A stretch of 64,000 bases of DNA. Origin: Gigantopelta aegis (taxonomy: Eukaryota; Mollusca; Gastropoda; Neomphalida; Peltospiridae). Of this stretch, positions 46-51,060 are shown piece by piece. Made by a program: the position numbers and the translations under genes. The stretch is taken from NCBI RefSeq assembly GCF_016097555.1, contig NC_054713.1:8418345-8482344 (forward strand). The letters are read 5' to 3'. How positions within the stretch are numbered: the stretch's first letter is position 1; each line of letters begins with the position of its first letter. The notes under the pieces were generated by a model. The model did no database searches and had not been told where the DNA came from. It saw nothing but the letters and a program-made list of their open reading frames with translations.

Positions 46-657
46 ATGTCAGTAAGGAAGATTTCTCGATTCTTCGGGAGGGTGCTGCGCAACTTCAGTC
101 GGAACAATCGAATTGATCCAGTCCCGGAGGTTTCGTCGAAGCCGGTCGACCCCGTTCCGCGTCCATCAAGATTTTTAAATTTCGATTTGATCGATGAAGT
201 CAAGGAACCACCCAAGGATCGCCACTTTTGGCGCGAGCTTTGCTGGACAGTTTGCTTCGTAACGACTGATGCTGATAACGCCTATCTCACCTACCACTGG
301 TGTCGCTGGTCCCCCGACACAACGATCAGCAACACTCGAGGAAATGCCGCCAGCGGCCCTTTCAAGGGCCACTACATCAACCTTTATAGCTGTAACAACA
401 ATAATACTAAAATTATAATTAAACAAAACGTTTTTTTAGAATCGCCAAAACTTCAAGTAGAGGCTTTTAGCCTATATAAAAAGCGAATACAAAAGGCAAC
501 TGGGCCCCTATGTATTAAAGGGACATTCCGTAGTTTGCTGCATTGTAAGATGTTTCCTACTAATAAAATATTTCTACGATTAAACTTACATATTAAATAT
601 ATTTTCTTGTTTAGAACATCAGTGTCTGTATATTCAATGTGTTTCTGGTCGTCTTAA
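46..657 (+). other. 203-codon open frame repeated in most satellite units, probably not a gene
   Basis: The frame starts MSVRKISRFFGRV and recurs in every unit, starting at 46, 772, 1498, 2223, 2949, 3675, 4403, 5129, 5855 and 6581. I recognise no domain. The first 56 residues are basic and proline-rich. The last 45 or so residues are translated from the embedded MITE, whose sequence elsewhere is plainly non-coding. The two units with indels change or shorten the frame (71 and 179 codons), so nothing seems to protect it. A short reverse-strand frame overlaps it. A real peptide from the first 70 codons cannot be excluded, but there is no positive evidence. Confidence 0.3.
355..370 (+). other. 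GC stem-loop in each satellite unit, resembling a histone 3' end hairpin
   Basis: GGCCCT, loop TTCA, AGGGCC: a perfect 6-bp stem with a 4-nt loop, followed by AC. The animal histone mRNA hairpin is also a 6-bp stem with a 4-nt loop, but its loop is usually UUUC or close to it. No histone coding sequence lies upstream in any frame, so this is a resemblance only. It recurs once per 726 bp. Confidence 0.35.
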
Positions 658-752
658 TATTTGTAAGAAGCGCAAACTGGATTTAGTCTTCAAATAATTT
701 CGTACGTCAGTCGATAATTTCCTAAAATTTGCAGCAAACCCAAGAATGTCCG
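519..752 (+). mobile_element. Internally deleted TTAA foldback MITE inside the satellite unit
   Basis: Ends AGGGACATTCC and GAATGTCCG match the dispersed MITE copies at 9838, 32009, 52139, 54128, 59898 and 62167, and TTAA flanks both sides (515-518, 753-756). Compared with full copies of about 375 bp, the centre and right arm after the CGTACGT core are missing, leaving 234 bp. The same copy is repeated in every unit of the array. Confidence 0.85.
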
Positions 753-3700: not shown

Positions 3701-6700
3701 CTTCGGGAGGGTGCTGCGCAACTTCAGTCGGAACAATCGAATTGATCCAGTCCCGGAGGTTTCGTCGAAGCCGGTCGACCCCGTTCCGCGTCCATCAAGA
3801 TTTTTAAATTTCGATTTGATCGATGAAGTCAAGGAACCACCCAAGGATCGCCACTTTTGGCGCGAGCTTTGCTGGACAGTTTGCTTCGTAACGACTGATG
3901 CTGATAACGCCTATCTCACCTACCACTGGTGTCGCTGGTCCCCCGACACAACGATCAGCAACACTCGAGGAAATGCCGCCAGCGGCCCTTTCAAGGGCCA
4001 CTACATCAACCTTTATAGCTGTAACAACAATAATACTAAAATTATAATTAAACAAAACGTTTTTTTAGAATCGCCAAAACTTCAAGTAGAGGCTTTTAGC
4101 CTATATAAAAAGCGAATACAAAAGGCAACTGGGCCCCTATGTATTAAAGGGACATTCCGTAGTTTGCTGCATTGTAAGATGTTTTTCCTACTAATAAAAT
4201 ATTTCTACGATTAAACTTACATATTAAATATATTTTCTTGTTTAGAACATCAGTGTCTGTATATTCAATGTGTTTCTGGTCGTCTTAATATTTGTAAGAA
4301 GCGCAAACTGGATTTAGTCTTCAAATAATTTCGTACGTCAGTCGATAATTTCCTAAAATTTGCAGCAAACCCAAGAATGTCCGTTAAAATAAATCTCAAG
4401 ACATGTCAGTAAGGAAGATTTCTCGATTCTTCGGGAGGGTGCTGCGCAACTTCAGTCGGAACAATCGAATTGATCCAGTCCCGGAGGTTTCGTCGAAGCC
4501 GGTCGACCCCGTTCCGCGTCCATCAAGATTTTTAAATTTCGATTTGATCGATGAAGTCAAGGAACCACCCAAGGATCGCCACTTTTGGCGCGAGCTTTGC
4601 TGGACAGTTTGCTTCGTAACGACTGATGCTGATAACGCCTATCTCACCTACCACTGGTGTCGCTGGTCCCCCGACACAACGATCAGCAACACTCGAGGAA
4701 ATGCCGCCAGCGGCCCTTTCAAGGGCCACTACATCAACCTTTATAGCTGTAACAACAATAATACTAAAATTATAATTAAACAAAACGTTTTTTTAGAATC
4801 GCCAAAACTTCAAGTAGAGGCTTTTAGCCTATATAAAAAGCGAATACAAAAGGCAACTGGGCCCCTATGTATTAAAGGGACATTCCGTAGTTTGCTGCAT
4901 TGTAAGATGTTTCCTACTAATAAAATATTTCTACGATTAAACTTACATATTAAATATATTTTCTTGTTTAGAACATCAGTGTCTGTATATTCAATGTGTT
5001 TCTGGTCGTCTTAATATTTGTAAGAAGCGCAAACTGGATTTAGTCTTCAAATAATTTCGTACGTCAGTCGATAATTTCCTAAAATTTGCAGCAAACCCAA
5101 GAATGTCCGTTAAAATAAATCTCAAGACATGTCAGTAAGGAAGATTTCTCGATTCTTCGGGAGGGTGCTGCGCAACTTCAGTCGGAACAATCGAATTGAT
5201 CCAGTCCCGGAGGTTTCGTCGAAGCCGGTCGACCCCGTTCCGCGTCCATCAAGATTTTTAAATTTCGATTTGATCGATGAAGTCAAGGAACCACCCAAGG
5301 ATCGCCACTTTTGGCGCGAGCTTTGCTGGACAGTTTGCTTCGTAACGACTGATGCTGATAACGCCTATCTCACCTACCACTGGTGTCGCTGGTCCCCCGA
5401 CACAACGATCAGCAACACTCGAGGAAATGCCGCCAGCGGCCCTTTCAAGGGCCACTACATCAACCTTTATAGCTGTAACAACAATAATACTAAAATTATA
5501 ATTAAACAAAACGTTTTTTTAGAATCGCCAAAACTTCAAGTAGAGGCTTTTAGCCTATATAAAAAGCGAATACAAAAGGCAACTGGGCCCCTATGTATTA
5601 AAGGGACATTCCGTAGTTTGCTGCATTGTAAGATGTTTCCTACTAATAAAATATTTCTACGATTAAACTTACATATTAAATATATTTTCTTGTTTAGAAC
5701 ATCAGTGTCTGTATATTCAATGTGTTTCTGGTCGTCTTAATATTTGTAAGAAGCGCAAACTGGATTTAGTCTTCAAATAATTTCGTACGTCAGTCGATAA
5801 TTTCCTAAAATTTGCAGCAAACCCAAGAATGTCCGTTAAAATAAATCTCAAGACATGTCAGTAAGGAAGATTTCTCGATTCTTCGGGAGGGTGCTGCGCA
5901 ACTTCAGTCGGAACAATCGAATTGATCCAGTCCCGGAGGTTTCGTCGAAGCCGGTCGACCCCGTTCCGCGTCCATCAAGATTTTTAAATTTCGATTTGAT
6001 CGATGAAGTCAAGGAACCACCCAAGGATCGCCACTTTTGGCGCGAGCTTTGCTGGACAGTTTGCTTCGTAACGACTGATGCTGATAACGCCTATCTCACC
6101 TACCACTGGTGTCGCTGGTCCCCCGACACAACGATCAGCAACACTCGAGGAAATGCCGCCAGCGGCCCTTTCAAGGGCCACTACATCAACCTTTATAGCT
6201 GTAACAACAATAATACTAAAATTATAATTAAACAAAACGTTTTTTTAGAATCGCCAAAACTTCAAGTAGAGGCTTTTAGCCTATATAAAAAGCGAATACA
6301 AAAGGCAACTGGGCCCCTATGTATTAAAGGGACATTCCGTAGTTTGCTGCATTGTAAGATGTTTCCTACTAATAAAATATTTCTACGATTAAACTTACAT
6401 ATTAAATATATTTTCTTGTTTAGAACATCAGTGTCTGTATATTCAATGTGTTTCTGGTCGTCTTAATATTTGTAAGAAGCGCAAACTGGATTTAGTCTTC
6501 AAATAATTTCGTACGTCAGTCGATAATTTCCTAAAATTTGCAGCAAACCCAAGAATGTCCGTTAAAATAAATCTCAAGACATGTCAGTAAGGAAGATTTC
6601 TCGATTCTTCGGGAGGGTGCTGCGCAACTTCAGTCGGAACAATCGAATTGATCCAGTCCCGGAGGTTTCGTCGAAGCCGGTCGACCCCGTTCCGCGTCCA

Positions 6701-7357
6701 TCAAGATTTTTAAATTTCGATTTGATCGATGAAGTCAAGGAACCACCCAAGGATCGCCACTTTTGGCGCGAGCTTTGCTGGACAGTTTGCTTCGTAACGA
6801 CTGATGCTGATAACGCCTATCTCACCTACCACTGGTGTCGCTGGTCCCCCGACACAACGATCAGCAACACTCGAGGAAATGCCGCCAGCGGCCCTTTCAA
6901 GGGCCACTACATCAACCTTTATAGCTGTAACAACAATAATACTAAAATTATAATTAAACAAAACGTTTTTTTAGAATCGCCAAAACTTCAAGTAGAGGCT
7001 TTTAGCCTATATAAAAAGCGAATACAAAAGGCAACTGGGCCCCTATGTATTAAAGGGACATTCCGTAGTTTGCTGCATTGTAAGATGTTTCCTACTAATA
7101 AAATATTTCTACGATTAAACTTACATATTAAATATATTTTCTTGTTTAGAACATCAGTGTCTGTATATTCAATGTGTTTCTGGTCGTCTTAATATTTGTA
7201 AGAAGCGCAAACTGGATTTAGTCTTCAAATAATTTCGTACGTCAGTCGATAATTTCCTAAAATTTGCAGCAAACCCAAGAATGTCCGTTAAAATAAATCT
7301 CAAGACATGTCAGTAAGGAAGATTTCTCGATTCTTCGGGAGGGTGCTGCGCAACTTC

Positions 7358-31957: not shown

Positions 31958-32008
31958 TTATAATCTATACTTCACAAAGGAGATTGATTATGGTTCTTGA
32001 CCATTTAA

Positions 32009-32385
32009 AGGGACATTCCTGAGTTTGCTGCAATTTTTAAGATGTTATCGACTAACAGACTTTGTAACAATTGTAATTACATTTTATATTTGTCAGCATA
32101 AAATATTAGTGGCCATATATTAAACGTGTTTCTGATCATTCTAATATTTGTACTATGTTAAATTTCATTTTATTTCCTAAAATATTCTTTTTTCGTACGT
32201 ATGATATTATTTGAAGACAAAATCCAGTTTGGCCTTCTTACAAATATCAAGACGACCATAAACACATTGAATATACAGACACTGATATTCTAAACAAGAA
32301 AATATATTTAATGTGTAAGTTTAATCGTAGAAATATTTTATTAGTCGGAAACATTTTGCAATGCAGCAAACTCGGGAATGTCCCT
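32009..32385. mobile_element. TTAA-flanked foldback MITE, 377 bp
   Basis: TTAA at 32005-32008 and 32386-32389; ends AGGGACATTCC. It is the opposite orientation to the copy at 9838. Confidence 0.88.
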
Positions 32386-32706
32386 TTAATTACAGTAACA
32401 AAACATTAATTGAAGACCTGCGTGCAAGAACCCGGTAACCCACGTCGCGGCCATTTTGACAAAATAAGTATTTTGTGATGGAGTTACCTGGTTATGACAA
32501 ACATTGAAAATACAACGATATTTATAACAATTAACCCATTTATTTTTATTCAAAATGAAACATAAACTATTTTCTGGACTTGTGGCTAGATATAGTCATA
32601 TTATGCATGCTTGTGCGTAATAATTAAGTCTTTATAAATCCAGTCATAACCAATTAAATGTTTAATGAAAATTATCATAGTCTTAATTATTTTTGTTATA
32701 TCATTC

Positions 32707-33804
32707 CTAATCAAGTACTTCATCATTTTCATTATCGTCATCAGCTTTCAGGCTTTTATAGAATCCTTTTGCTGTTATAGGGATGAGATCGCAATGAGCC
32801 ACCAAATCACGCAGTTTGGCTGCCTTGATTTTTCTCGGACCTTGGTATCGAGGAACAAAAGTGAAGGGAGACTCATCAAGCGTTTCTCGGACCTTGGTAA
32901 GCTGTACGACCTTCCACCCCTTCATATCGGATAGTGGTGTACCTGAATTCGTACTGGTTTCGATATTCTCTTGAGAGTCAAAGCCATCTGATGTTGATGA
33001 ACTCGACCTTTTGACCATCAGCGGTTTTTTTCTTAAACACGAGTTTGTGGGGAAGCTTTTCGAAATCAAAGATCATGTTCCTGTCCATAGGAAATACAGT
33101 AAATGGTTTCTTTTTCCTAGTTTTTATGATAACATAGTGCCAGTCAGTTGGCAGGTATACATGGTTGCGTCGGCGTTTTTCTTTCTCAATGTGACTGAAA
33201 TCGGCATCAGATGGCAAGAAGGAATGGCCAGATACTTTGAATTTATTTTCAATTTGATCAAAACGACCTTCTCTGATAGATGCCACCATAAAGCAAGGAT
33301 ATGTTGTCAGGCGCCTTTGAGGGATATCAACAGAATCAAAATATTTCAGAAGACATGAACCAATCTCACTCGCACCTCTTGATGCAACATCTTCGGACCA
33401 AACACATATATAGCCATTTGCAGTAGAGCAGTCGTGAATACCTGTATTGTATGTCCACAACCGACGCTTGTAAAATGCAATACCAGTTGTAATGTAAAGT
33501 GTTGGTAAAGCCTGCTAAAGGTCAAAGGTAATCACTCGTGTGGACGTCATTAGCTTTTGCTGCTGCTCGGTCCTCTTTAAGCGTGAAAAAATTTCTTTTT
33601 TGCATGCCTAAGGTGCTTTTCCCACTCCCGTTTCAAATTTCATCTGTGTTGCCCATATCGGATATCTTAAATTTATAACTGTCACACGTTCTACAGGTGT
33701 CAGACCTTGGTTCCCCGAATCCTAAATTGAACTCGTGATTAAAGACATCCCTGTACTTCCATTCTTTCAGGGCTGTCTTTCCTTTTGCCTCACGTGCCTT
33801 CTTA
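32707..33804 (-). pseudogene. DUF7869-like gene relic, C-terminal part
   Basis: On the minus strand recognisable blocks run in order: [98 protein letters not shown] and KIKAAKLRDLVAHCDLIP. This order is familiar from a large, poorly characterised invertebrate protein family labelled DUF7869, often found near mobile elements; that naming is from memory. The relic is broken in several places. Its N-terminal part lies at 48683-49440, separated by the Harbinger element inserted at a TTA. Confidence 0.65.
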
Positions 33805-34122
33805 GGCTGCCTTTCCATTGGTCCGGTTTTACCCGCGCGGCTATTTCTGCCGCTAAGCGGTAAAAATCAAATGCGTTGATTTGCATTGACGTCTTTCCAT
33901 TGACCCGGTTGTTCGCCGTGCGGCCCAAAAAGGTCGATCATGTATCGATTTTGTTCTAGCCGTGCGGCTCGAACCGCATGGGGAATCCATAAATGACGTC
34001 ATTGTGGGGGTATTACCCACGATTACCCATTCCCCACCCTTATGTGTTTTACAGCGTCATTTGATAATTTTCAACTTTTCAGAGTAGCCTAGGTTGTGTT
34101 TTTTTAAAGCATTTTTCATGCA

Positions 34123-34900
34123 ATGGGCGAGCCAAAGTTCATCCACGAGCAAATGGAAACTTTAATCTATTTGGTAAGAGAAAACCCAGGCATTTATGAC
34201 CAATCTTTAAGTCAATATAAGGACCAGATCTGGGGCCCGTTTCAAAAACTTCGTAAGAAAAAAACTTTAGAAAAAAAGATAAAAAACTTACGAATAAAAA
34301 CGGTGCGTTTCACGAAAGTGTTCGTAAGAAAATTGTTATCTTAAGAACTTCTTAATTTACGAATTTTTTATTTTTATGACTCTTATATAGATGAGATAAA
34401 ATAATTCATGACAACGTAAACTTCCGGTAGTAGTGTTTTGTCAGTAACTTTTTGTTAACACTTTGTAGCATACTCTATCTACTGAATAAAGCGTGTAAGA
34501 ACTATTCAAAAACGTTAGTATCGATCGTTAATGTTGAACGCATATTTTTTGCACGTTCTACTTGACGTCTGCAATTATGCCGCTGTGTTACGTCAGTAAA
34601 GCTAAATGACAGCAGACATGGCAATGGAAACGAAAAAGAGGAAGGCCAACTGGAATGAAAATGAATTGGAAGTGTTAGCAGACGCTGTGGTGTGCGACAT
34701 TAACATTATCAGAGGGAAATTTTTTTCCTCATTAACCCATGAAAAGAAACAGAGTGTATGGATGAAAATAACAGAAAAGTAAGTAAATGCAGTCATATGC
34801 AGGGCCATGGGTGGGTGCAGGATTTTTGTAAGGAGGGAGTGTTGGACAAAAAGGGCAGTAGGAGTAGCTTATATGTCTGCTTGACAAAATGTGAGAGAGC

Positions 34901-34931
<31 letters not shown>

Positions 34932-37900
34932 AAATAAAATAAAAATAATAATAAATAAAATTAAAATAATAAATAAATTAATTAATTAAAAAATAATATT
35001 TTGGTTTTTTTAAATACTAAATTTTTTTTTTTTAAATGTTGCAGGTATATTTTTTAATATAAAATTAAGAAATAGAGGGGCACCTATTTCTGAAAAAAGG
35101 GCACTTGACATCTTGATGGGGGAGGGTGTGCATTCCCAGCACCCCCCATGGTATCCGCGCCTAACTAGTAGAAGTGTCCGCATTTAAATTTATATATATA
35201 TATACATTTTTGTATATGTGTTTTTTCTACTCCTAATTATTATTCTCGAGCAACTGATTACAAACTGATTATACCGGCCTCGGTGGCGTCGTGGCAGGCC
35301 ATCGGTCTACAGGCTGGTAGGTACTGGGTTCGGATCCCAGTCGAGGCATGGGATTTTTAATCGAGATACCGACTCCAAACCCTGAGTGAGTGCTCCGCAA
35401 GGCTCAATGGGTAGGTGTAAACCACTTGCACCGACCAGTGATCCATAACTGGTTCAACAAAGGCCATGGTTTGTGCTATCCTGCCTGTGGGAAGCGCAAA
35501 TAAAAGATCCCTTGCTGCCTGTCGTAAAAAGAGTAGCCTATGTGGCGACAGCGGGTTTCCTCTAAAAACAGTCAGAATGACCATATGTTTGACGTCCAAT
35601 AGCCGATGATAAGATAAAAAATCAATGTGCTCTAGCGGCGTCGTTAAATAAAACAAACTTTACTTTTTTTTACAAACTGATTACAAACATTTGTATTATA
35701 ACTATATTTATAACTTAAAGTACATACAAGATTGAATTAAACTCAATTTCTTTCTCTTTTCTCTCTCACTCTCTGTATCTATACATACCCACTCTGTATC
35801 TCTCTTTCATACACACACGCATACAGACATAGACAGGCATGTATGCATATGCAATGAATGGATATGGTGTGATATGGATTTCAGTGACAAATACACACAA
35901 ATTAGATGTGTTATTCAGGTATACAGTGAAATACAATAAATCATATTGAAATATTTCATGTCTTACTTTTTTAATGTTCTTAAAATTTAGAAATTTTAAT
36001 GAATTTTTCTTTCCTTAGGATCAACGCTGTCAGTACTGCAGGAAGGTCTGTAGAAGAAGTTAAAAAAAAATGGCACGACAGCTTAAGCATTGTTAAAAAG
36101 AAAGAGAGCAATCGATTGAAATCAATGAGAGAAACTGGTGGTGGACCACCATTGGAAGTCATATTTAAGCAATGGGAGTTGTCAGTGAGTGTTATTACAA
36201 ATAAATATGCAGATACATGTGCATACACAAACTCACATATACACACATACATACACATACATATACACACACACATATAAATATATACGTACCTATATAT
36301 CAATGTTAGATATATAAAGATAAAGATAAGAAGACATAGAAAGAAAGAGAGAGATAGACAGAAAGACAGACAGACATATGGAGAAAGAAATGAAGACAGA
36401 TATTTACACACTTGTGTACAAAATTAGTACTATTAGTGTCTTCAAAATGTCATTTTACAGATTTTACAGACACTTTCACCAACCGCAATATCAGGAATTC
36501 CTGGTGCTGTCGATACAAGTGAAGAAAGTGTTCCATCAGTGCAAGGTATCATTACTTGTCACAAATTTGTGTAATTGTTTGTTATACTTTACCTTCAGTC
36601 AATTTTCATGACAATTAAAAAATAAAGATAATAATCTTTTACATCAATTTATTGCATAGCAGTCATTTTGGATTTTTGTATAACACTAGCTGCAAATGAT
36701 GCATCATTGGTATTTTGAACACACAGTCATATTAATAGTAATAATAACAACAAAATCACTTAATTCATAGACTGACTAATGATATTAACACCAAAAAACA
36801 TATTGTACTCATTTATTACATTAATTTCTTTGCAGCTGTTCCATCAGACATCAACAACAATGACAGTGTGGAAGGTAATTGATACCATGTTGTACAATGT
36901 TGTTATTGCTTTTGTTATGTTTTTATATTACTAATACTGACTATTATTATTATTATTATGATACTTATTATTATGATTATGATATAACTATTATTGATAT
37001 ATATATTGATATACTGTCATTATGATATAAATATTGATATCATTGTTAATTATTTTGTCATTATTGTATTATTATCATTCAATATTAGCATATCATTGTC
37101 ATCATCATTTTGTTTCAGTCATTAGTATATTGTCAAGTATATTATAATGACTATTCTTAATTCATTAGTTAATATTTATCAGTGATAATAATTGTCGTTT
37201 TTGATTGATTGTGTACACTGTTACATTATTAACATTAATATTTTTATCATTACTTTTATATATAGAAACAACAGTGTACATTGTGAATCCGGGCCCAGCT
37301 ATGAAAGATAATGCATTAGGTAAATTATTTGGTTTTCAAATATAATACATGAGAATTTGTTGCATACTTTACAGTGATATGTCATGTCAATTACATTTTA
37401 CCGTTTTACAAATATATAGAAAAGTCACTTAATTTTCTTATTTATGAACGTTGGTAATGATTTATAAGTATAATGTCCATTGCAAACTTGTGTATTGCAA
37501 TTAATGATTATTGATTATAACAATATATAGATACAGGTACTACAATTTTTCATATGACACATGTTATCATGTGTAATGTTTATATACATATTCTTGTATA
37601 CATATATAATTCGGGATGTATGCAACATACATTTAATAATGTGATATGTCATGTCAATTTGACATTTTATTACAAATATATAAAAGTCACTTAATTTCTT
37701 ATTTTATGAATTGGTAATGATTATAATTATAATGTCCATTGCATACTTGTGTATTGCAATTAATGATATTGATTATTACATATATAGATACAGGAGACAC
37801 CCAACAACAGTATATATATGAAATAAATTTCCACATTTTGATTTCAAGCGGTTCCACATATTTCAAAAAAGAATAAAAGGACAATGGGTATGTTATTAAA

Positions 37901-40900
37901 CGTATAATTATGATAAAGGAATGACATACAGTTTATTATTATATTTTATATATCATTACATGCCTTCAGAAATTGTAATAGAGCTTGAATCAAGTAGTCC
38001 TTTCTATTTGTTGCTTGAATTTCACAATTCTTCATTTCCAAGTATATAGTGTATTAGAAGATGAAATCAATGGCTAACTTACCATTGCAACATTAACTGT
38101 ATGTCATATATTAATATATTTCAATATTCAATATAAAATGTCAATTTTTGATGTTGCTTATTTTATGCTTATTCAAGCTTTTGATATTCATGCAAAAGTC
38201 ATAAACACTTGTAATTCATTACTGTAGTATTAAAGAATACATTACAAGGTTGCAAAATTACTTTTTCAGATAATGAAGATTCTGTGAGGACAATTTGAAA
38301 TTGAAGAGAGGAGAAATTGAAAATGAGAAGAGGTATCAATGAAAAAAATCATACCAATTAGAACAAACAAAAATTGAACAATATTGTGTGAAATTTCGAA
38401 CTCACTCAAATCAATTGAAAAACATTTAAGAAAACGCTCGCCCATTTTCTGTATCACCAATCATATCATTGAACATTTTGAATACATATTCACATATAAA
38501 TGATTGCCATAGCATACAACAGTAGTTTATGTTATGTATAAATCATAAAATGTCATTTATATACTTGTAGAATGAGGTGGTAGGTTTGTGAATTTAAAAT
38601 TTAAACAGAAACAAATTTGAAATATGTACCATGAACTAATGTGAATCATTAAAGTTAACAGAATTTGAATTTGCACCAAAGTAATGCAATACAATCAATT
38701 TATGATGCATCTTCATATTTGGCTTTATGCTTTTAAAATCTTGCAATTAGTTGCTGGCGAATTGTTTGTGCTTGTCTGTCAGGAACATTTCTGCAAATGT
38801 GGTTGTTGTTTATTTGCAGTATATGTCCACCATGTAGCAAAGGAATGTTTTCATTTATTGCTTTATTATGCAGACGGAAGGTTTCAATTATTCGTGAGCA
38901 TTTTTTCGGCGAAAATGGTAATGCTCCACCACTTTTATGGATACATCTGAAAACAGACATTATTACATATGTTTAATTACTTCAATTTCATTTTGGAGTT
39001 TCATGTTTATATGTGTTTCTGTATGTGAGTGCATGTTTACATGTGCATGTGTGCATTTATTTTTTCACATGTCTTTGTTATGTGTGTAATGACATTAATT
39101 GCAATGTTATATTATGTAATAATTCCAATAACACCATAATACTAAGTAAAAGTATTAAATATTTCATCAGCATAATCATAATATATATTTATTGACATGA
39201 ATTTTATTTAAAGATGATCAAAATACTACATTCTTGTGTTTTTTTCATGTTTTAGTCGGGGTTTTTTAATTAATCATGATGTGGTTAAAATAATTTACTA
39301 ATGTAATTTATTACTATTCAAATGAAGGTACTAATTCCTTAAAATTAATACACAATTACCAATGGACTTTCAAACATGGGGAAACTGTGTTTTCATTTTT
39401 ACAATAATATTAAAAGTTAATGATTCAAATGATGAATGCAATGCAGTTGTAAGGGAAACATTTCACCTGAATCTGGATTTTAAGACACCAAATGCCCTTT
39501 CAATGACGACTCTTGTTTTGCAATGTGCCCTGTTGTATGATATTTCTTTGTGACTTGTTGGATGAATGAGGGGTGTCATCAGCCATGTTTTCAAGGGATA
39601 TCCAGAATCACCAACAAGCCACCCTCCTGGCAAGTTCTCCATCATTCGGTGAATGTTGGAACTCATTAAAATATATACATCATGAGATGCACCAGGGAAT
39701 CTTGTATTTATATTGATGAATCTGTGGGAACAATACATTATAATTTCCTTACACTTAACCTTACATATATGTCACATTTTAAGTTATTCATATTGAAGTT
39801 CTGTGCAATATTATTCATTTCATACTCAATAATACCAAATAATGTTGGGCTTAAAACCATGTATCACATAACCTTAATATAATTATGTTGAATGAGTGTA
39901 ACATTGTATCATACATTATGTTGTGGATTTATTGGCTTTTACAAATCTTTCAAGTATTTGTTCATGTTTATATTATAAAAATAGTATTTTGTTTTCATTG
40001 TTAAAATTTTAGATAAACCCACTTAAGTAATAGGTGTTGCATTTCAATTAATGCATTATGTTTTTATTTACCTCATTTTTGCATCAGCCACTGCCATGAT
40101 GTTTAAAGCATGGAACCCTTTGCGACAAACGTACAGATTTTCATCAGTTCCTGTCATACCTTGAATTGGTATTAATGTACCATCTATGGCACCAATTACA
40201 TTTGGAAAGGATGCCAACGAGTAAAACTTCTCTTTTACTTCTCTCACTTCAGCATTGTTACGTGGGAAGTGTATATTATTAAGTCTGTGACACATAGCAT
40301 CACATACACTGTTTATGCATCTGGATGCTGATGACTTTGATATGCCATGTACGTCTGCAACTTCAGACAAGAAATCTCCTTTAGCTAAATATCTTAAAGT
40401 AACCATCACCTGAAAAGTAATTTTTAATTAGAATTAACACTAATTAATTTTGTGACCTTGATATAATCACGTGTGTGCATACACACATGTTCATAACATG
40501 ATAACATACAGACAATATATGAAGGCATTTCATACAGGATAGTTCCATTATGTACAGAAATATGCATGAAGTCAGTGTGTATGTGTGTATGTGTGTATGT
40601 GTGTGTGCGTATTGTAAGAAACAAAAAGTTTATTACAGAAAATGTAAATGTTGTGCAAGATATTAAAATTGTACAGGCCACTTTCTTACTTTATATCAGT
40701 TTAATACTGATTGTGTGTTGGACTCTTTAGTGTCTATGAATTTCAGTATGAATGGAACTTGTGTTGATTTTAAATAATAATTTATTACTCATTATGTGCA
40801 TTTCACATCAGTATTTGTTTTCTCTCGTTTTCAATAATATATATTACTACCGCAACATACTGCAGTAAACCAAATTACTTCACATTTAAAAATTAACACA

Positions 40901-42693
40901 CAAACGCACACACACACACACACACAATTAAGTTATGTAAATGTTGCCACCAATATTTGAAATATATAATTTTATTATTTTCATTGTAAATTGCTGTTAA
41001 AAAATGCTTATAATTCACTGATAAACTTTGATGACTGATTATAGAAATAGTTAGGAGTGATACATTTGTAGTATCTTTCGTTACAAGTACATTTGAAAAA
41101 ATCACTGAATTCAAGTACAAATGTGGTTACTAAATATTACAAAGCGCACAATTTTAACAGCACCGTATAATCTAAGGGAGATAAATATATATAATTTTTC
41201 AAAGGTAACAGTTTCATATTTCACCGGCAGCGTTTCCTACCTGAATGTGTGGTTGAATGGGGTGACTTCTGCAACTCGGTCTCACGATGTCCTCTCTTAT
41301 CAAATCGGTCAGTTGTAATACTGTTGTCCGAGGAAATCGATATCTTGGAATGTAATCACTGTCTTGCAGTGTCTCTAACAAATACGATCTGTCTCTGAAT
41401 ATTCTTTCTCTCCGAATTTGTCGTGCAATCAACGCTTGATAAATTATGGCGGCCATTTTTACGAAGAAAATAAACTTATTAAGAGAACGCTGGGGTTATC
41501 TTAGACTTACGAACAATTTTTTTCGTAAGTTAAGAAAATTTATTTTCGTGAAACGCATTTTGTTCGTACCTTATCTCTTAAGAGTAAAACTGTTCGTACG
41601 AACTTTTGTGAAACGGGCCCCTGGACTAACAATTGCTGGACGAAGATCGCAAGAAAATTCAACGTCCAAGACATGACAGGTGCAATAATAATAATAATAA
41701 TAATAATAATTTAATATTATGCTGCTATTATACAGGCCCGTAGGAACGGTGGAGGGGGAGGCGGGGGCACGTGCCCCTCCCAATTGTGAGCCTTTTTTTT
41801 CCCCACACATTAATGTTATTGTAACATCTGATATAGTTTGTACTCGATCCGTCAGTGCTCCCCCCCCCCTCCCCCTCCCCTCCCCTCCCCCCCCCCCCCC
41901 CTCCCCCCCTCCCCCCCTCCCCTCCTCCCCCCCAAAGTCGTTCCTACGAGCCTGTTATACACGCATAGAAAGTTTATAAACACAACCATCACACAAAGTT
42001 GCAAAGTACATCTAGGCAACCCTTAAGATCATTCATGTTACAAAATCGTTTTTGTTTATTCCTTAAAATGACCGATATCGGGTCCAACTTGACAAATTAA
42101 CTTAAAATGGAGGAAGATGGATAAACATTCGGTGCGAGTCACATGACCTCACACGTGCCAGATCAACATTTAATTTTGGAGGGGTTAGTGTGGAAAGAGA
42201 GATGGGGAGTATTCAGCAAGTAATTTCGGCCTCAAAATAACCTCCTCCTCCCTCAAAAACATGGACGTAAAACGAATCCATTCTAGTAAACACAATACAG
42301 TAAATAGGAAAGGGTAATAATAATAATCATAGTAATAATAATAATACGTAAAATGTTCCAGCCCTTATACATACATCTACAGTCATTTGGCCCGAATAAA
42401 ATCGATCTGAATGTTTATCATTATAAAGTTTTTCAAAATTCCCAATCAAAGGGGAACAACTGCTTTGGGTATTTATTCTGATGTAAATTTGTTTTAAAAT
42501 GATTGCCTAAATATAGGGCGGTCTGGTACACGTGACAGGGGTAGGCTCATATCCATTGAAGGGGTGGATACGAAATTCACGCACTTAGTTCAATGCATCT
42601 AAAATCTAGACGTACATTACTTTTGTTGTTTCTTCGCTTGCAATGAATTTCCCATTAAATCATATATAAATGAATAATTAAAAAAATATATAT

Positions 42694-42745
<52 letters not shown>

Positions 42746-45700
42746 GATAAAATTGCAACAATTTCATCGCACAAACTGTTTCAAACAGAATAGCAGCAAA
42801 AACACTACATTGTTCGAGAAACTCATCTCCGAGTATCTAAATTAACCATATTTAAAGGGAGCATACCCCGGGTCCCTCCCCGAGATATCGATCCCTTCGG
42901 CAGCTCGACTCATTTGTTTTGGGCAAAATCGAACCTTCCTTTAAACAAAATTAATTTTTTAGGCCTGACCACTCTCAATATGGCTCCAGTGGGCTGTATA
43001 TAATGAAGATGTTGAAAAGATTCTGTCACAATTACTATTTCTGGCCGTAGGAACCGTGAGGGGTCGGGTGGAGTCGTTCCCCCCCCCCCCCCCCCCCCCA
43101 TGGTGGGAAAATGTACCAGTTTTGTCAAAACACACTTCAGATTTCGTTCCTACGGGCCTGAACATGCGTAGCATAATTTTCAGCAACATTTTTATTATAT
43201 AAAAAAACAAAATCCGCAATATTGAATTATATATATATATATGAAAAGGAATTTGTAAATATTGCTATACAAACATGCATTACAAACATGCATTTACAAA
43301 CTATTGCTGTTGTATTAGTCACTATTGTAGTTGCAATAACATAATTTCCAATTGTCATACTCATCCAATCAGCTCATGAACAAAATACATGTATACTGCT
43401 TGAAATAAAAATTGTTTTTAATATTTTTATTGTCGTTACAGGTGACATTCTGCGAAGAAAATGGAGGAACAAAAGAGATGCTTACAAGAAAAACAAACGT
43501 CTTCTTGAAACTAAAAAGAGCGGATCCTGTGCGTCCAAGGTGACGAAAATTATGTTCTACGATCAGTTATCATTCCTTGACCCATACATTGCTGATCGTA
43601 GGTAAGTGCATGCTCACTGAATCCCTGGCAAGTTTGTGTTAATTGGCGCAATCATAATGTAATAATAATAAGAACAATATGCATACTTTAACTTTAAAAA
43701 TTAAACATGTAAAACCAGCAACATGTAATTTAATTTTATAATACATTTAGAAATATATACTAAGAGAAAGAAATAAGGGAACACTTGGTATTGTAGAGCA
43801 AACTGCACTCACTGTTTAGCGTCGTAATGTCTGTAAAGTACAAATATGTAATGTGAGACTGAATGTCAGTAATGTGAGATTGAATGTCAGTAATGTGAGA
43901 TTGAATGTCATTAATGTGAGATTGAATGTTATTAATGTGAGATTGAATGTCAGTAACAGTGATAACTTGCTTAATACTATAGATGAGGGTTTTGCTTGCA
44001 GTCACTCTTTGCTGTTATTGTTGGTGTGATCCAATATTTCTTTCTATCAGTATATTTAATTTGTTTATTTAAAAGTCTGCTTGCTTCTGGATGCAACTGA
44101 TTCACATATAACAATGTCAAATAACTGTGTAATATCAATACTTTGATTTACAGCACAGTCAGCAATCTGCCGCAGAGGCAATCAGAGCCTCTCTTCAGTG
44201 AGGAAGAAGAAGCGGATGGTGATGAAGAAGATATTAGTCCTATATTGCCCACGTCTGATGAAGAGCATTCTGACTTAGAGTCTGCATTGAGGTAAGACAT
44301 ATATCTTTAATCACGGAATCCTCTCTTAATATAATCGGCCTGCCATGGCAGTGGATATGTTGCAAAGTATTCTTTCAGTGTGTCCCTGATGTTGGTTGCT
44401 TCAGTAGTTCCCCGAGTGCCAAGGGAACGTAAACCCTCTAAGCAATCTAAATCAGTTGGTTGTTGACCATCAATCAATTGTGTAGCCAGTGCAGGGGTTG
44501 ATTCTTTTTGAATATTGTGCAAGATTATTGAGGCTTGGATAATAGAATTAACTGTCTCCGGTAACACTGCCATTTTGGTGTGATACACACGCCATCTAGC
44601 TGCAAAAATTCCAAAGGCACACTCTACCATCCTTCGTGCTCTTGAGTGCCTATAATTATAGGCTTGTTTCTCCTCAGTGCAGTTTCATCCAGGATAGGGT
44701 CGCATGATATGTCGCTGCAATGGACACGCTTCATCTCCCACCACAACATAAGGGACGGGACCAAACTCTTCAGCTCCTTTAATAGGAGCATCATCTGGCA
44801 GGTTGAGAGCATTAGGAGGCAAAAATGCTTGGCCTAGCTGTGAATGGGAGAATATGCCTGCATCTGATTGCTTCCCATATGAACCAATATCAACACATAT
44901 AAACTTGTACGAGGCATCGACCAAGGCCATCAGAACCACTGAAAATGTACCCTTGTAATTGTAAAATAGGGATCCACTCTATGGTGCGCGTATGACTACA
45001 TGTTTTCCATCGACAGCTCCAATGCAATGCGGGTAGTTCCACCTCTTCTCGAAGTTTGCAGCGATCTCCACCCAGTCTGTCGAGGTCTGTGGCATGCTCA
45101 TAACAACTGGCTGCAAGGTCTGCCAAATGGCTGGCAGAACACACCTCAGGTACTACTTTCGATACGGTTGTCAAACCCACACGGTACTGAGTAGCAAGAG
45201 ATGTATATGTTTCCCCGGTGGCCAAGAATCTGACATAGAAATACAAATACATTTATAAATAAATAGCAAGGGAATCAGAAAAGTCAGCAACATGTAATTT
45301 AGCATTTAATAAATATATTATAGCCACAACACTAATGTTTAAATTTCTGTTTTCAGTAGTCTAATGCCCAAGAGAATGAAGGCCACCAGCATCACAGCAC
45401 CTACCCCATCCACATTATCATGTGTGAGCTCCATCTCCTCAACATCCAGGAGAAAGAAAAAGAGTCAATCGGAAACAATTGATAAGTTAGATGTTTTGCT
45501 TATGGAAATGACCAAACAGATGAACTCCACTGATGAAGAAATACGAACGGTGACGGCAAACACCGAGGCCAGAACACCTGAAGATGACTTCTTCGTGATG
45601 ATTTCTCGACGGGTTCGAATGATGTCTGCAAACACCCAACTGTGGATGGAGAACCAGGTGTGGGACTTGTATATGCAAGCGAGGAGGGATCAGGCTGGCA

Positions 45701-45927
45701 TGCCCGTCATGGGCGCCAACACTGGGACAGCTATGATCAACGCAACATACACACCCGCACTCATGCCCGGGCACTACTCGCAAACCCAAAATTTTCACAT
45801 GAACCACACAGACAACACACAGAACACGCAGACACTGACACAACTACAAACACCAAGTCAACACTCACAACAACAGCACCCAGTAAATACAAAAACTGAT
45901 GTCACGGGGATCCTACAATACCCGTAA
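34123..45927 (+). CDS. MADF-BESS DNA-binding protein of the outer Harbinger element (split by insertion)
   Basis: Four exons: 34123-34232 continued at 41624-41679, then 43442-43601, 44154-44291 and 45357-45927. With the inserted element left out, all junctions (CAG/G.GT type) keep frame and give 344 residues. The MADF domain covers about residues 6-105: IYLVRENPGIYDQSLSQYKD, W37, then ILRRKWRNKRDAYKKN and YDQLSFLDPYIADR. An acidic stretch (SEEEEADGDEED) follows, then a basic patch RRKKK and a BESS-like motif, EDDFFVMISRRVRMMSANTQ. MADF-BESS proteins bind DNA and contact partners; in Harbinger elements the second protein helps bring the transposase to the ends. The insertion lies inside codon 37, so the present gene cannot give the full protein. 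Confidence 0.85.
34618..38340 (+). CDS. Myb/SANT-like partner protein of the inner Harbinger element
   Basis: Exon 1 34618-34778 and exon 2 36019-36184 join in frame (donor GTAAGT, acceptor TTAG) to give the Myb_DNA-bind_5 type domain: KKRKANWNENELEVLADAV, W47, then VKKKWHDSL (W72) and the signature TGGGPP (residues 93-98). Tryptophans at 12, 47 and 72 form the usual SANT core. Short exons probably follow at 36461-36546 (or from 36471), 36838-36875, 37266-37320, about 37852-37888 (VPHISKKNKRTM) and 38271 onward (charged, coiled-coil-like). The tail is less certain and seems to shift frame near 38290. In this superfamily the Myb-like protein binds element ends and recruits the transposase to the nucleus. 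The first intron holds a SINE1. Confidence 0.75.
35272..35671 (+). mobile_element. SINE1 copy inside intron 1 of the Myb/SANT gene
   Basis: Flanked by ACAAACTGATTA (35260-35271, 35672-35683). Full head, body and tail, 400 bp, very close to the copy at 22190. It is the innermost level of the nest. Confidence 0.93.
38733..41456 (-). CDS. HARBI1-type transposase of the inner Harbinger element, intact reading frame
   Basis: Four exons on the minus strand: 41456-41241, 40409-40072, 39721-39467 and 38946-38733. All donors are GT and acceptors AG, phases match, and the sum is 1023 nt (340 residues), the usual size for HARBI1 proteins. The start MAAIIYQALIARQIRRERIF follows a short leader inside the right inverted repeat. 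The DDE triad is complete: D148 in VIGAIDGTLIPI, D223 in WLVGDSGYPLKTW and E259 in TRVVIERAFGVLKSRFR, giving DD35E spacing. A helix-turn-helix-like segment (HGISKSSASRCIN) lies near residue 93. It converges with the Myb/SANT gene. I see no stop or frame break, so this copy could still be functional; expression is not shown by sequence. Confidence 0.9.
41733..41954. mobile_element. Candidate MITE, CAGGCCCGTAGG ends, C-rich centre
   Basis: Ends CAGGCCCGTAGGAACG and CGTTCCTACGAGCCTG are inverted, about 222 bp apart, flanked by TTATA on both sides. The centre has long C tracts (41855-41930). Lies in an intron of the outer MADF gene. Similar termini occur at 43041-43160 and 47833-48010. Confidence 0.65.
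42660..42742. repeat. (TA)n microsatellite
   Basis: Alternating TA over about 80 bp with brief interruptions, in an intron of the outer element. Confidence 0.95.
43041..43160. mobile_element. Candidate MITE, short copy of the CCGTAGGAAC family
   Basis: GGCCGTAGGAACCG at the left is mirrored by CGTTCCTACGGGCCTG at the right, with a ~20-bp C run between. Related to 41733-41954. Confidence 0.55.
43849..43957. repeat. 21-bp minisatellite, about five units
   Basis: Units of the type TAATGTGAGATTGAATGTCAG with single-base variants. In intron 2 of the outer MADF gene. Confidence 0.9.
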
Positions 45928-47165
45928 CTGAATGAAACACGATTATCCAAATATCTCTCCTAACTGTATATCTATTAGATCTCTCTGTAACGGGCAGTTA
46001 AAAAAACCCGCGTGGCTCGTCAGAGATAAGATCTTGTATAAAGTATATATTATTATAGCACGTTTAGTTCACTAGAAAACACAACAAAACACAATACACT
46101 TTGGAATCTGTATTAATACTACGCTGACAAATGTACTGCCGCAGTAGTTATTTAACAACAACAAATAATAACAACCCAGAACAGATCACTTAATTAGTTA
46201 ATCTCTAGGTGTCTAGTTTACACAATATTGTAATCACTTCACCGTGACACAACACCCACACGTGTGATAATTGAGAAACGCTGCCAGGGGAACTTAATTA
46301 ATAAAGGAATTACAACTCTATTTCTAACTGGTTAATTTTTAATTAACCCTTAACTACTCATTCAGTAACCTTGTAACACAGAATTAATACTGGTACCTAT
46401 CACAATAAAGACAATAACCTACACTTTACCTAGGTCCTCTAGGATGACTGGTTAAGCTTTATATATATAGAACAGTGAGCCTACAGTTTACTGCGTCAGA
46501 TGACCGGCAGCACCGTCTAAATAATATTGATATAATACAGTATTAAAATATTTAAAAAAAAGTAAAGTTTGTTTTATTTAACACGCCTAAAATATTTAAA
46601 GTACATCAATCACATCAAGGTTATACACAGAGCAGAAATAAAATATTTACCAGTCCGGACGGACAGCGATCCCTGGAAGCCTTCCAACATGTTTCTCCCC
46701 GATATCTCTAAAACCCTAGCTATTTATCATAAAAATCCGAATATCGCGGTACCTCACGTATCATGAGATATTTCCCCAACTCCCAGAGACGCATTTTTCT
46801 CTTAGAATACCAGACTGGCTTGTCGCCATTCCGCGAGTAATCCCCTGGTCATAAACAGCACTACCGGAGTTATTACGTAACTACTGGCGACATGGCCTCC
46901 ACAGCTGGGCTGGGTGTGTATTGGAACAGCTCGACCACCGTCGCGCAGCGGAGGTATTACGTAACATCGTGCCCACCTGGGCTTAAGTGCATATTGGAAC
47001 TGCACACGGCCCTCTAACAATTAATATCGCCACAGGCGAAAACAAATTAAGAGCATGTTCCGTCACAACTGATAGAAGTGCTTTTGACATGATTGCAAGG
47101 TCAATGAATATATATAATGAATAAATGAATCAAAATACTCATTATATATTTATGTATGCAAGGTC
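45928..47165. other. Intron-like, gene-empty stretch of the outer element with an imperfect ~75-bp repeat
   Basis: Between 46830 and 47010 two imperfect direct copies share TATTACGTAAC followed by CTGGGCT and GTATTGGAAC-like blocks. Nothing else was recognised. Confidence 0.5.
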
Positions 47166-47177
47166 TCTCTTTGATGA

Positions 47178-47551
47178 ATCGGCCTCGGTGGCGTCGTGGT
47201 TAGGCCATCGGTCTACAGGCTGGTAGGTACTAGGTTCGGATCCCAGTCGAGGCATGGGGTTTTTAATCCAGATACCGACTCCAAGGCTCATTGGGTAGGT
47301 GTAAACCACTTGCACCGACCAGTGATCCATAACTGGTTCAACAAAGGCCATGGTTTGTGCTATCCTGCCTGTGGGAAGCGCAAAAAATAAAAGATCCCTT
47401 GCTGCTAATCGGAAAGAGTAGCCCATGAAGTGGCAACAGCTGGTTTCCTCTCAAAATCTGTGTGGTCCTTAACCATATGTCTGACGCCATATAACCGTAA
47501 ATAAAATGTGTTGAGTGCGTTGTTGAATAAAGCATTTCTTTCTTTCTTCTT
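47178..47551 (+). mobile_element. SINE1 copy in the intron of the outer transposase gene
   Basis: Flanked by TCTCTTTGATGA (47166-47177, 47552-47563). Head with B box GGTTCGGATCCC and a slightly shortened body; tail variant GTGCGTTGTTGAATAAAGC. Confidence 0.9.
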
Positions 47552-47832
47552 TCTCTTTGATGATTCCTTGTATTGATATCTTGAATATGTGAGGGACCGC
47601 TATTTGTAGGGCCCCCCGACTCTTGTTTGATTTCGATCATTGGAATTTATTGTTTCTTCTGTGTGTGAAGTGATTAGAATATTGTGCCATTGTGCCTTTT
47701 GCTAAATTAATCTCATGCTAAAAGTAAGGGAGGGGTAAAAATAAAAATGTAAATAGTTGTCAGTGTTTGTCATTTTGTTAGTAGTAGTGTCTAGAATAAC
47801 AGTATGTATACGTTTTATCGGTAACAACCATG

Positions 47833-48010
47833 CAGGCCCGTAGCCAGGATTCTGCAGCGGTATCCGTGAATTTTTTTTAACGAATAAAAAGACCTTAAAT
47901 CGCAAACAAATTATTGTTATTTTAGGAGGTAAACTGTGATGTTTTTAAAGTCATTTTCACGACGCGGTGGCTTGCTCGATACCTTTTGCCCACCCTTGCC
48001 TACGGGCCTG
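47833..48010. mobile_element. Candidate MITE, CAGGCCCGTAGCC ends
   Basis: CAGGCCCGTAGCCAGG at the left and CCTACGGGCCTG at the right are inverted over 178 bp. No target duplication is clear. Confidence 0.5.
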
Positions 48011-48682
48011 TGAAGGCAACAATCTAAGATGATAGGTTCCATGTGGCATTGTATGGCATTGTATTATTATACAATGTATTAATTAATTGTTGTATTGCCG
48101 TTTCCGATAAAACGATATATAATATTATTAAGAGTGTGGGCTGTTTAGTATTAAGCCCTGCATGACATCACTAAAGACTATAATACCTGATGCAGATCGC
48201 CAGCCTTTTCTTGGCTGAAAGAGGCTCACGAAGAACGGTCATTTTAGTTATAAGTGGACCCACAAATCCCAAAACATACTCCAGCTTCTCGGGAGACATA
48301 CGAAAATATTGATGAAATTTGTCTTTATCAAACTGACGCTCCCGCACTAGATTGAAAAAAGCACCCTGTTCCAAACTCCTTAATATCTCATGCTCCCAAA
48401 ATCTGTGTGTTCTTTTCACGGGTGTTAGTTCTCGTCTCCTTAATAACAATTCAAATCTCGATTTGATCAAATGTTGTTTTTTCCTTAAAAGTTTGATTAC
48501 TAATGCTTCTTTCTCATTTAATAATGACATATTTTAATTTATAGTATCAAACAAAATAGAAAAAAATGGCCGCTTAATTAATTAATGACGTCACATGGAA
48601 GGAACCGTGTCTTACTAAGAACGCATCAGTGGAAACGTGCTAGCCGCGCGGGTAAAACCGGGCCAATGGAAAGGCAGCCTTA

Positions 48683-49440
48683 TAGTGATTGTAAAGCTGA
48701 CTTAAGTTTAGTTCGGGACTGACATACCTTTTTCTGGGGTTTTCTGTCGGGAGTATTGCTCACATATTTGGGGATGGAATTGATGTGGTCTCTTATTTCC
48801 TGAAGATCGTCTTCAGCAGACCTGTTTGGTTTGGAGTCATGGCGGCCTCTACCAGATTGACCAGGTGTGGTATTTCCGTGTTTCATTTTACTTTGGAGAT
48901 ATTCAACTTGGTGGCGTGTAATACCTAAAATGCTACAGAATGCAACTTTGCACACATTCTTATCTATACCGTTCACTTTCAAAAAGTAGTAGAAAGAGCA
49001 TGATCTTTTGGTTTCCGGATTACTTGTGTAGCGTCGCAGAACTGGAGATCGATGCATGCAGCTAAAGAGAAAAGCATATTGTGCCTATCATATTTTAGCT
49101 TGCAGTAATCCTTAAACAGTCTTTCTCGAGATTCTTTGCCAATATTTTAAAAACATTTCTTTTTTACATCTGCAGTCAACCCCTTCCGTCTTTTGTGAAA
49201 TCTCCATCTCCATTTCTGTAGTTGAAAATTTATATATGATTTTCCAGAAAGTCTGTTTTTCTTACGAGTGACCCTTTTTCAGTTATAAGAGTTAGACTTT
49301 CTTTTCCGTGGTCGATTTCCACTGGCAGACTCTTCATCAACCAACGTCGATCTATCTGCAGCCCTGAGAAGTCAATCCGTGCTATCAATACTGTCATTGG
49401 CACCAGGAGCGTAATCAGGATCATCTATTCCATCATCTGC
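48683..49440 (-). pseudogene. DUF7869-like gene relic, N-terminal part
   Basis: Minus-strand blocks VCKVAFCSILGITRHQVEYL, GRGRHDSKPN, IRDHINSIPKYVS and, in another frame, RYVSPELNLSQLYNHYKK, which continues across the insertion point into 33804 with the TTA removed (KKAREAKGKTALKEWKYRD). This places both halves in one gene that predates the outer Harbinger. A basic stretch upstream (49200-49420) is probably its N-terminus. Broken in more than one place; whether the family is host or mobile is unsettled. Confidence 0.6.
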
Positions 49441-49908
49441 AACTATAATGTAAAACATATTTGTACCAAATCTGGAATAACTTGGCATTAAAACATAAAA
49501 TTACAAGAGAAATAAACACACACACACACACACACACATTGCACAACCATCACGTACATAATACAACAGACCGCTGGCTACTTATTGTGTAAGCTACGTA
49601 CGGTTTGTTTATTGTAGAACGATTCGTAAACATTTCACCTACAACATCATTTAATTACACGCGGAAAAATAGTCCACCTTATGCAACGACATAAAAATGT
49701 AACAACTTAAAGTGCTGTTCCAGATGTATGATGTATTGAGCTATATCAATCAAAATTATATACCGGTATATTTAAAAATATTCCCCTGAAAAACAGAACC
49801 AGCTGAATTCGTTTCGGGAATTTCCGTAAGATTTGATCCGTGACGTCACGAAGGGAACTCCTTTCGATAGTCGGCGCCATTGTTCATTGCTTCTTTTGTG
49901 TTTATTAT
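49441..49908. other. Gene-empty stretch with (CA)n tract
   Basis: (CA)n at about 49515-49540. The last 100 bp before 49909 may be promoter and leader of the THAP relic. Confidence 0.4.
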
Positions 49909-50270
49909 GGTTAAACGGCGTGTTGTTGGCGGCTGTAGCAATACAAAAGCCGATAAATTTAGTCTTCACGCATTTCCTAGTAATGTTGCTGTGAGAAAGC
50001 TGTGTGTGAATTTGATTAAAACAACGTGACAATACTGGACAGGAAGAAAATGCCGGAGACCGTTGCGACAGCAGACACTTTAGTTTCGATTCGTCCGAAC
50101 TGGCTTGTCGGCGTAGGCGATATATGGGAATACCATGTGTTATGGCTTTTAAAAAAAGATGCCGTACCAAGAATTTTTCTGCGACACAAAACAAATGACA
50201 ACAAGCCGACGCCATCCACACCGAAACGACCTTGGGGTGCATATCGTCAATGTCCCAAATTGCGTTATGC
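49909..50270 (+). pseudogene. THAP-domain gene relic
   Basis: THAP domains are C2CH zinc fingers that bind DNA, found in host regulators and P-element-type transposases. ATG 49909 opens MVKRRVVGGCSNTKADKFSL followed by HAFPSNVAVRKL, a close match to THAP starts. The first zinc ligand seems to be Arg (CGT) where Cys (TGT) is expected. After LIKTT the frame breaks; other frames keep QYWTG, RHFSFDSSEL and DAVPRIF, the last resembling the AVPTIF box. At least two frame breaks are needed, so it is a decayed copy. Confidence 0.7.
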
Positions 50271-50419
50271 TTTCAACTCCGGTCAGTTGTTTTTTTTCAT
50301 GCACGGTTCGTGCAATCATTGAGATCCGATTTGTTGTCGTTTGCATCTCGTTCATTTGTGAGATTTTTCTTTACCGTTCGAGAACATTAAAACAATAAAG
50401 TACAAACAAGTAAGTATCT

Positions 50420-51060
50420 ATAGCCCAGGCCGTCCCATCCTACAAAAATATAGGGGTTTTTTGTAAAAAAGAAAAAAGAAAAAAAAAGCTACTTTTGTAT
50501 GCATCTTAGAAAACAATCGGCTCAGAAATATATGACTGGTAAATTCCATAGTATAAAAAAAAGGCGTTCCCTGTAAAACAGACTATAAATACATTAAATT
50601 AATTTGACTATACTTTCCCACAGAGAAAACCTTTTTTTTCATACTATGGAATGTGCTATAAGTTATTTATTTCTGAGCAGACTGTTTTCACAACTGCACA
50701 CAAAAAAATAGTATTGTTTTATTATTTCCAAAACACTTTTACTTTTTTTTATGTCAAACTAAACTGAAATTATTCACACACAAAAACATCTTCATGGATG
50801 GATGGGACGGACTAAAAGTCGTTTTTGTTTATTTCTTAAAATTAAAATAAGTTATTTATTTCTGAGCAGACTGTTTTCACAACTGCACACAAAAAATAGT
50901 ATTGTTTTGTTATTTCCAAAACACTTTTACTTTTTTTTACGTCAAACTAAACTGAAATTATTCACACAAAAAAACAACATTTTCATAGAGGGATGGGACG
51001 GACTAAAAGTCGTTTTTGTTTATTTCTTAAAATTACCGATATCGGGTCCACTTGACTCGT
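50420..51060. repeat. Repeat region with a ~190-bp tandem duplication
   Basis: 50655-50840 and 50848-51035 are nearly identical direct copies (AAGTTATTTATTTCTGAGCA through GTCGTTTTTGTTTATTTC). CCGTCCCATCC at 50430 is inverted to GGATGGGACGG at 50798 and 50992, suggesting a mobile element with inverted ends. A similar segment (CCGATATCGGGTCCA) occurs at 42070. Confidence 0.7.

Follow-up and report, generated by a model that had tools for sequence, protein, structure and literature searches.

When transposable elements are found one inside another, does the arrangement record real insertions, and if so, does it also reveal the order in which they happened? A locus of the gastropod Gigantopelta aegis raises both questions, and a third concerning the nature of its outermost layer. 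It lies in a stretch of 64,000 bases (contig C15, 8418345–8482344; hereafter the window, to which all positions refer). Searches covered the whole assembly (1,149,253,464 bases in 5,216 contigs), and 12 genomic stretches of about 10 kb were compared with the window: six with copies of the outer element, five with copies of the inner element and one with a copy of the relic that surrounds them. We consider it almost certain that a SINE in a NuwaI-type element, in a PIF/Harbinger element, in a DUF7869-related relic makes up a real four-level nest. A first-pass annotation had described four nested levels with exact duplications, and this is borne out (TTA, CTG and 12 bp, at the positions listed below).

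The first layer was an element encoding a DUF7869-related protein, struck at TTA by a PIF/Harbinger element; a NuwaI-type element landed at CTG in codon 37 of the MADF exon of the PIF/Harbinger element, and a SINE with a tRNA-like head landed in a presumed intron of the Myb/SANT gene of the NuwaI element. Each of these three inserts left the target duplication typical for its kind.

The outer element

33805–48679: outer element, 14,875 bp including inserts (terminal repeats, DDE_Tnp_4, sister copies)
33802–33804 and 48680–48682: TTA target duplication (exact match)
34123–34232, plus strand: first half of the MADF exon, split within codon 37
41624–41679, plus strand: second half of the MADF exon (exon ends read by eye)
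About 43442–43605, plus strand: next exon of the MADF gene (exon ends read by eye)
44307–45252, minus strand: DDE transposase gene, disrupted by stop codons and a shift of frame

Because it combines pieces of a DDE_Tnp_4 gene with a MADF gene and TWA duplications, the outer element is a PIF/Harbinger element (PHIS superfamily). Its terminal repeats (33805–33843 and 48641–48679) agree at 38 of their first 39 bases, the flanking TTA duplication to which the first-pass annotation drew attention is exact, and TWA duplications were found around all four of the other outer copies with both ends seen (TAA for L012 and L023, TTA for L021 and L022). In Pfam searches DDE_Tnp_4 was recognised on two pieces of the broken transposase gene (E 4.4e-11 and 1.8e-8), and the joined MADF exons span the full profile (PF10545, 1–84 of 84; E 1.4e-14); the MADF exon of L012 gave E 1.3e-7.

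The outer element probably holds additional inserts, absent from the first-pass annotation. Inverted CCGTAGG-type ends bound 41735–41957, 43040–43165 and 47833–48014, perhaps MITEs (boundaries approximate), and there is a possible extra insert at about 45980–47050; by eye, 46166–46217 recurs beside a DUF7869-related element in L028. The outer copy of L012 has an internal deletion (42353 joined to 47061), lacks the transposase region and is a non-autonomous derivative.

The inner element and its empty site

34233–41620: inner element with termini GGGCCCGTTTCA (identical over 12 bases); length 7,388 bp, SINE included
34230–34232 and 41621–41623: CTG target duplication (exact match)
34618–34779, plus strand: exon 1 of the Myb/SANT gene (Pfam Myb_DNA-bind_5)
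About 36020–36184, plus strand: exon 2 of the same gene; the inferred intron between the exons holds the SINE
38740–41456, minus strand: DDE transposase gene of about four exons, stop-free within them (exon ends approximate, by eye)

Did this element enter an intact outer element? An empty site had been predicted at 34232, and five of the six other outer copies have it (L012, L020, L021, L022 and L023, all aligning ungapped across the insertion point, with the third base of CTG altered in L022 and L023); the sixth, L013, is deleted there, its alignment ending at 34227 and restarting at 42067. Among the best 40 of 60 hits for 34000–34500, only the window's own spans the inner junction by at least 10 bases on each side; 34 are outer-only and five inner-only, and 20 of the 34 stop at query positions 228–234 (the junction falls after base 233). 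The CTG duplication is exact, as had been claimed, and dropping one CTG does rebuild codon 37 (TGG) of the MADF exon, which is open and uninterrupted in L012 and L020 and out of frame in L022 and L023.

The joined Myb/SANT exons match Myb_DNA-bind_5 (Pfam E 2.8e-17), and the joined transposase exons match DDE_Tnp_4 (E 2.8e-29), with an HTH_Tnp_4 stretch under its cut-off. CWG duplications flank all three of the other inner copies with both ends (CTG for L014 and L015, CAG for L017); the single ends of L016 and L018 are also CWG, which is thus found at all eight ends seen. The termini GGGCCCGTTTC occur at all of the ends listed, where the search pattern required a GGG start and allowed one mismatch. 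The first-pass annotation called the inner element a second PIF/Harbinger element, and its place in the PHIS superfamily stands, but it is not of the typical TWA-duplicating type (CTG/CAG duplications, GGG termini, Myb/SANT gene). It is better called NuwaI-type, because CWG duplications, GGG termini and the pairing of DDE_Tnp_4 with a Myb/SANT gene match the published marks of that group.

The innermost SINE

About 35272–35669, plus strand: innermost SINE, with a tRNA-like head at 35277–35348 (ARAGORN); empty site elsewhere, multi-copy
35258–35271 and 35670–35683: SINE target duplication ACAAACTGATTA, 12 bp (14 bp at its longest, as in these coordinates)

The 12-bp duplication is exact, and may be taken as 9–14 bp depending on the SINE end chosen: it extends to 14 bp when the TT of the tail is counted, and a TTA next to the SINE can be assigned either to the SINE or to the duplication, because SINE heads elsewhere have TTA too. 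The empty site predicted at 35271 was found in four of the five other inner copies (L014, L015 and L016 exactly, L018 with an 11-bp deletion), and in the fifth, L017, the stretch is deleted. Among the best 40 of 312 hits for 35130–35330, the window's own is the only one to pass through the SINE junction; five hits, from four inner copies, stop by 35271, and the other 34 are SINE heads that start at most 17 bases to the left of the junction. Both inner levels are established, then, by their duplications together with empty sites in other copies in the same genome.

As the SINE lies in what we infer to be an intron of the Myb/SANT gene, it need not have broken its carrier. ARAGORN reported its head as tRNA-???, and Rfam gave no match at gathering score in 32000–50500. 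The label 'SINE1' in the first-pass annotation is not to be equated with the 7SL-derived class, and we take the SINE to resemble gastropod repeats.

Does the nesting give the order of insertion?

The first-pass annotation read a clear relative order of events from the nest. Nesting does tell us what landed in what, but not that a carrier had already arrived at its present place when it received its insert. The claim was too strong, because cut-and-paste elements can carry inserts with them (see the second SINE, in L012) and because the divergences of the elements overlap. The evidence for such carriage lies within the outer element itself:

47178–47552, plus strand: second SINE, in the outer element; common to L012
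47167–47177 and 47553–47563: its duplication CTCTTTGATGA, 11 bp (12 with one tail base)

This SINE, overlooked in the first-pass annotation, is also found at the corresponding point of L012, an outer copy that lies elsewhere in the genome between TAA duplications of its own. It was carried along with the outer element, which shows that inserts can move together with the element that holds them. L013 was also considered as a sharer of the insertion and rejected, its SINE having a different 3′ flank; the 12 stretches yielded no copy free of the second SINE.

The innermost SINE may therefore have entered the NuwaI-type element either earlier or later than that element came to where it now lies, and the same goes for the NuwaI-type element and the outer element that carries it. 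The likeliest order is outer element, inner element, SINE, because no second loaded copy was present among the scored hits. Alternatively, an inner element already loaded with its SINE could have jumped into the outer element, or a loaded outer element could have jumped into the relic as a unit. The second SINE common to two outer copies at different places, and the overlapping divergences, speak for such events, which we nevertheless regard as rather unlikely, though far from negligible: among the scored hits only the window joins outer to inner element, or inner element to SINE at this point, and an element of 14.9 kb with a broken transposase would presumably be a poor traveller, though movable in trans.

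How far do the divergences help with the likeliest order? The inner element differs from L014 by a K2P distance of 0.018 and from L015 by 0.016 (0.015 between these two; 0.013 to 0.032 by region and copy). The outer element differs from L012 by 0.017 in the left arm and 0.024 in the right part, from L013 by 0.036 (left arm) and from the other four outer copies by 0.07–0.15. These values do not set the insertions apart in time. Dating by substitutions private to the window was dropped: there were 134 in 6603 positions of the inner copy (2.0%), and six in 392 (1.5%) and two in 262 (0.8%) in two outer stretches, which at face value does not make the inner element younger. We think that misaligned indels inflate the inner count, because 2.0% is larger than the full BLAST distance from those sister copies (1.6–1.8%). 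The lesson of the shared second SINE is that, for cut-and-paste elements, nesting order alone should not be read as a clock.

The outermost layer

32412–33801, minus strand: first piece of the relic (its 3′ half), from the apparent terminus GAAGACC to the outer insertion point; left end common to L019, ORF relatives
32408–32411: left flank of the relic, AATT
48683–49440, minus strand: second piece of the relic (5′ part); frame across the join, alignment with relatives

The DNA of the relic is nearly single-copy in the genome, and searches with its flanks gave the window and one diverged copy ending at 33566, with no DNA paralogue across the outermost join. Since the join thus has no empty site in DNA, protein continuity was used. 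The residues KKAREAKGK, which had been said to continue the relic, do so: the joined frame reads through the junction, within an open segment of 82 residues. Aligned with the ORF of L047 this segment scores 142, against 45 and 118 for its halves alone, with a two-residue gap exactly at the join; with the L046 ORF the score is 135 (halves 38 and 104) and the alignment is gap-free across the join. L032 behaves like L046. The ORFs of L030 and L041 start at the join, and their matches are confined to its right side. When the left half was shuffled, the best score was reached in one of 1000 trials. The outermost level is supported by this continuity, together with the TTA duplication of the outer element and its terminal repeats.

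The relic is dead, because its frame is interrupted at several places and it has lost a DxCxGQN block that its relatives retain. Pfam searches with the read-through and with the two pieces gave no match to DUF7869 (PF25273) up to E 10, and no family above its cut-off. The description 'DUF7869-like' therefore holds only by way of the relatives, with one ORF matching DUF7869 above the cut-off and two places below it, and not for the relic itself. A second copy of the relic, L019 (contig C7), starts at the same base, likewise after AATT; neither local alignment nor a fuzzy pattern revealed a right terminus in the window or in L019.

Two observations concern the surroundings of the relic. Adjoining it at 32004–32390 is an inverted-repeat element with AAAGGGACATTCC ends, of which there are four more copies in the window (at about 52.2, 54.1, 59.9 and 62.2 kb). 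On the other side, a THAP-like reading of a plus-strand ORF at 49907 was set aside, its 40 residues having no Pfam support.

Relatives of the relic and a possible transposase

With the relic as query, a protein search of the genome returned 63 matches, counting that of the window itself, and Pfam was run on ORFs from three of the matching places. The 464-residue ORF of L044 matches PF25273 above the curated cut-off (E 2.2e-11), the L046 ORF falls below it (E 4.9e-4), and of the two pieces of L047 one also falls below it (E 1.3e-3) and the other has no match. The 464-residue ORF sits in a 3.77-kb element with terminal inverted repeats GAAGAGTTCAGG, 99.4% identical between L044 and L045 and with possible 4-bp duplications (AATT and ATAT, the latter weak in lying within a TA repeat); this element looks to have been recently mobile. 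Termini of a second type, GAGCCCCTRAGA, accompany DUF7869-related ORFs in two other families (L026/L048, L027/L050, L028/L051 and L046), and four such elements have the flanks AAAT/AAAT, ATCT/ATCT, AATT/AGTT and one pair without a 4-bp match. Altogether, with boundaries picked after inspection, the 4-bp duplication is perfect in four of six relatives (in one case within the TA repeat), matches at three of four bases in another and is missing from the last. The start of the relic, AATT and then GAAGACC, fits the first terminus type (L044/L045). Ends of the form GAGCCCCT were missing from seven of 16 loci scanned, and when 11 loci were examined for either terminus type, three single matches turned up but no pair; in both scans most loci were represented by 1.5 kb on each side, and ends may lie beyond.

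From the one end seen, and from relatives of this kind, we infer that the relic itself was a terminal-repeat transposon. Could it instead be a gene of the host, or plain intergenic sequence? The lack of a Pfam family above cut-off and the single terminus would fit such an origin, but it is improbable in view of the 63 matches in the genome (again counting the window's own), the second copy in L019 with its identical starting point behind AATT, and the several relatives flanked by terminal inverted repeats, among them a pair at two loci with 99.4% identity.

If the relic was indeed such a transposon, what is DUF7869? It is possible, though we put this forward tentatively, that DUF7869 is the catalytic part of a transposase, and that the elements encoding it, with terminal repeats, GAAGA/GAGCC termini and duplications of 4 bp that are mostly AT-rich, belong to a Sola-like branch or to an unnamed superfamily, with the outermost layer as a dead member. 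Following up the outermost layer brings one to terminal-repeat elements with a domain listed as of unknown function, and the best lead to come from the locus is DUF7869 as a possible transposase marker. A literature search of partial coverage found no paper naming DUF7869 or PF25273.

The reality of the nest

That misjoined repeat copies produced a false nest is hardly credible: the region is rich in repeats and a single assembly was examined, but a misassembly is not expected to flank three separate inserts with family-specific duplications (TTA, CTG and 12 bp), nor to place break points that equal, base for base, the empty sites elsewhere. (Also in the window, at about 600–7200, one short match is repeated every 726 bases or so, which suggests a tandem array.)

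The nest is very clean and well proven, but ordinary and familiar in kind. For two of its three insertions, empty sites in the same genome supply the proof, and the third is supported by protein continuity and exact duplications; with its events so supported, the locus provides a clean example for calibrating the annotation of nested transposons. No paper joining Harbinger elements, nested insertion and molluscs emerged from a literature search of partial coverage.

Comparison with known systems

The relatives of the outermost layer may be compared with the Sola2-type elements of amoebozoa, for which AT-rich 4-bp duplications of the form AWWT have been published (ATAT, AAAT, ATTT; PMC3627910). 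The comparison is one of duplications: AATT, ATAT and AAAT occur among the relatives with DUF7869, but so do ATCT, which lies outside AWWT, one match at three of four bases and one element without a match. In the mollusc set of one survey, Sola elements appear confined to bivalves (PMC10294476).

For the inner element, the published account of the NuwaI group describes CWG duplications, GGG termini and a DDE transposase together with a Myb/SANT gene, and records the group from animals, including one mollusc (PMC4482050). The inner element agrees in its CTG/CAG duplications, its GGG termini, a DDE transposase without other domains and a Myb/SANT gene, and is placed here by these features. It differs in being longer: it measures 7,388 bp including its SINE, and L014 and L015 have about 7.57 kb, where the autonomous candidates of that account average about 4,462 bp (PMC4482050).

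The innermost insert is like tRNA-derived SINEs: its 5′ head is tRNA-like and its tail T-rich, its duplication measures about 12 bp and it has many copies. It differs in that its head received no amino acid call. The outer element has the TWA duplications, DDE_Tnp_4 transposase and second, MADF (Myb/SANT-like) gene of PIF/Harbinger elements, and nothing that falls outside the range of that family; the window copy is simply one that has been enlarged by inserts and whose transposase gene is broken.
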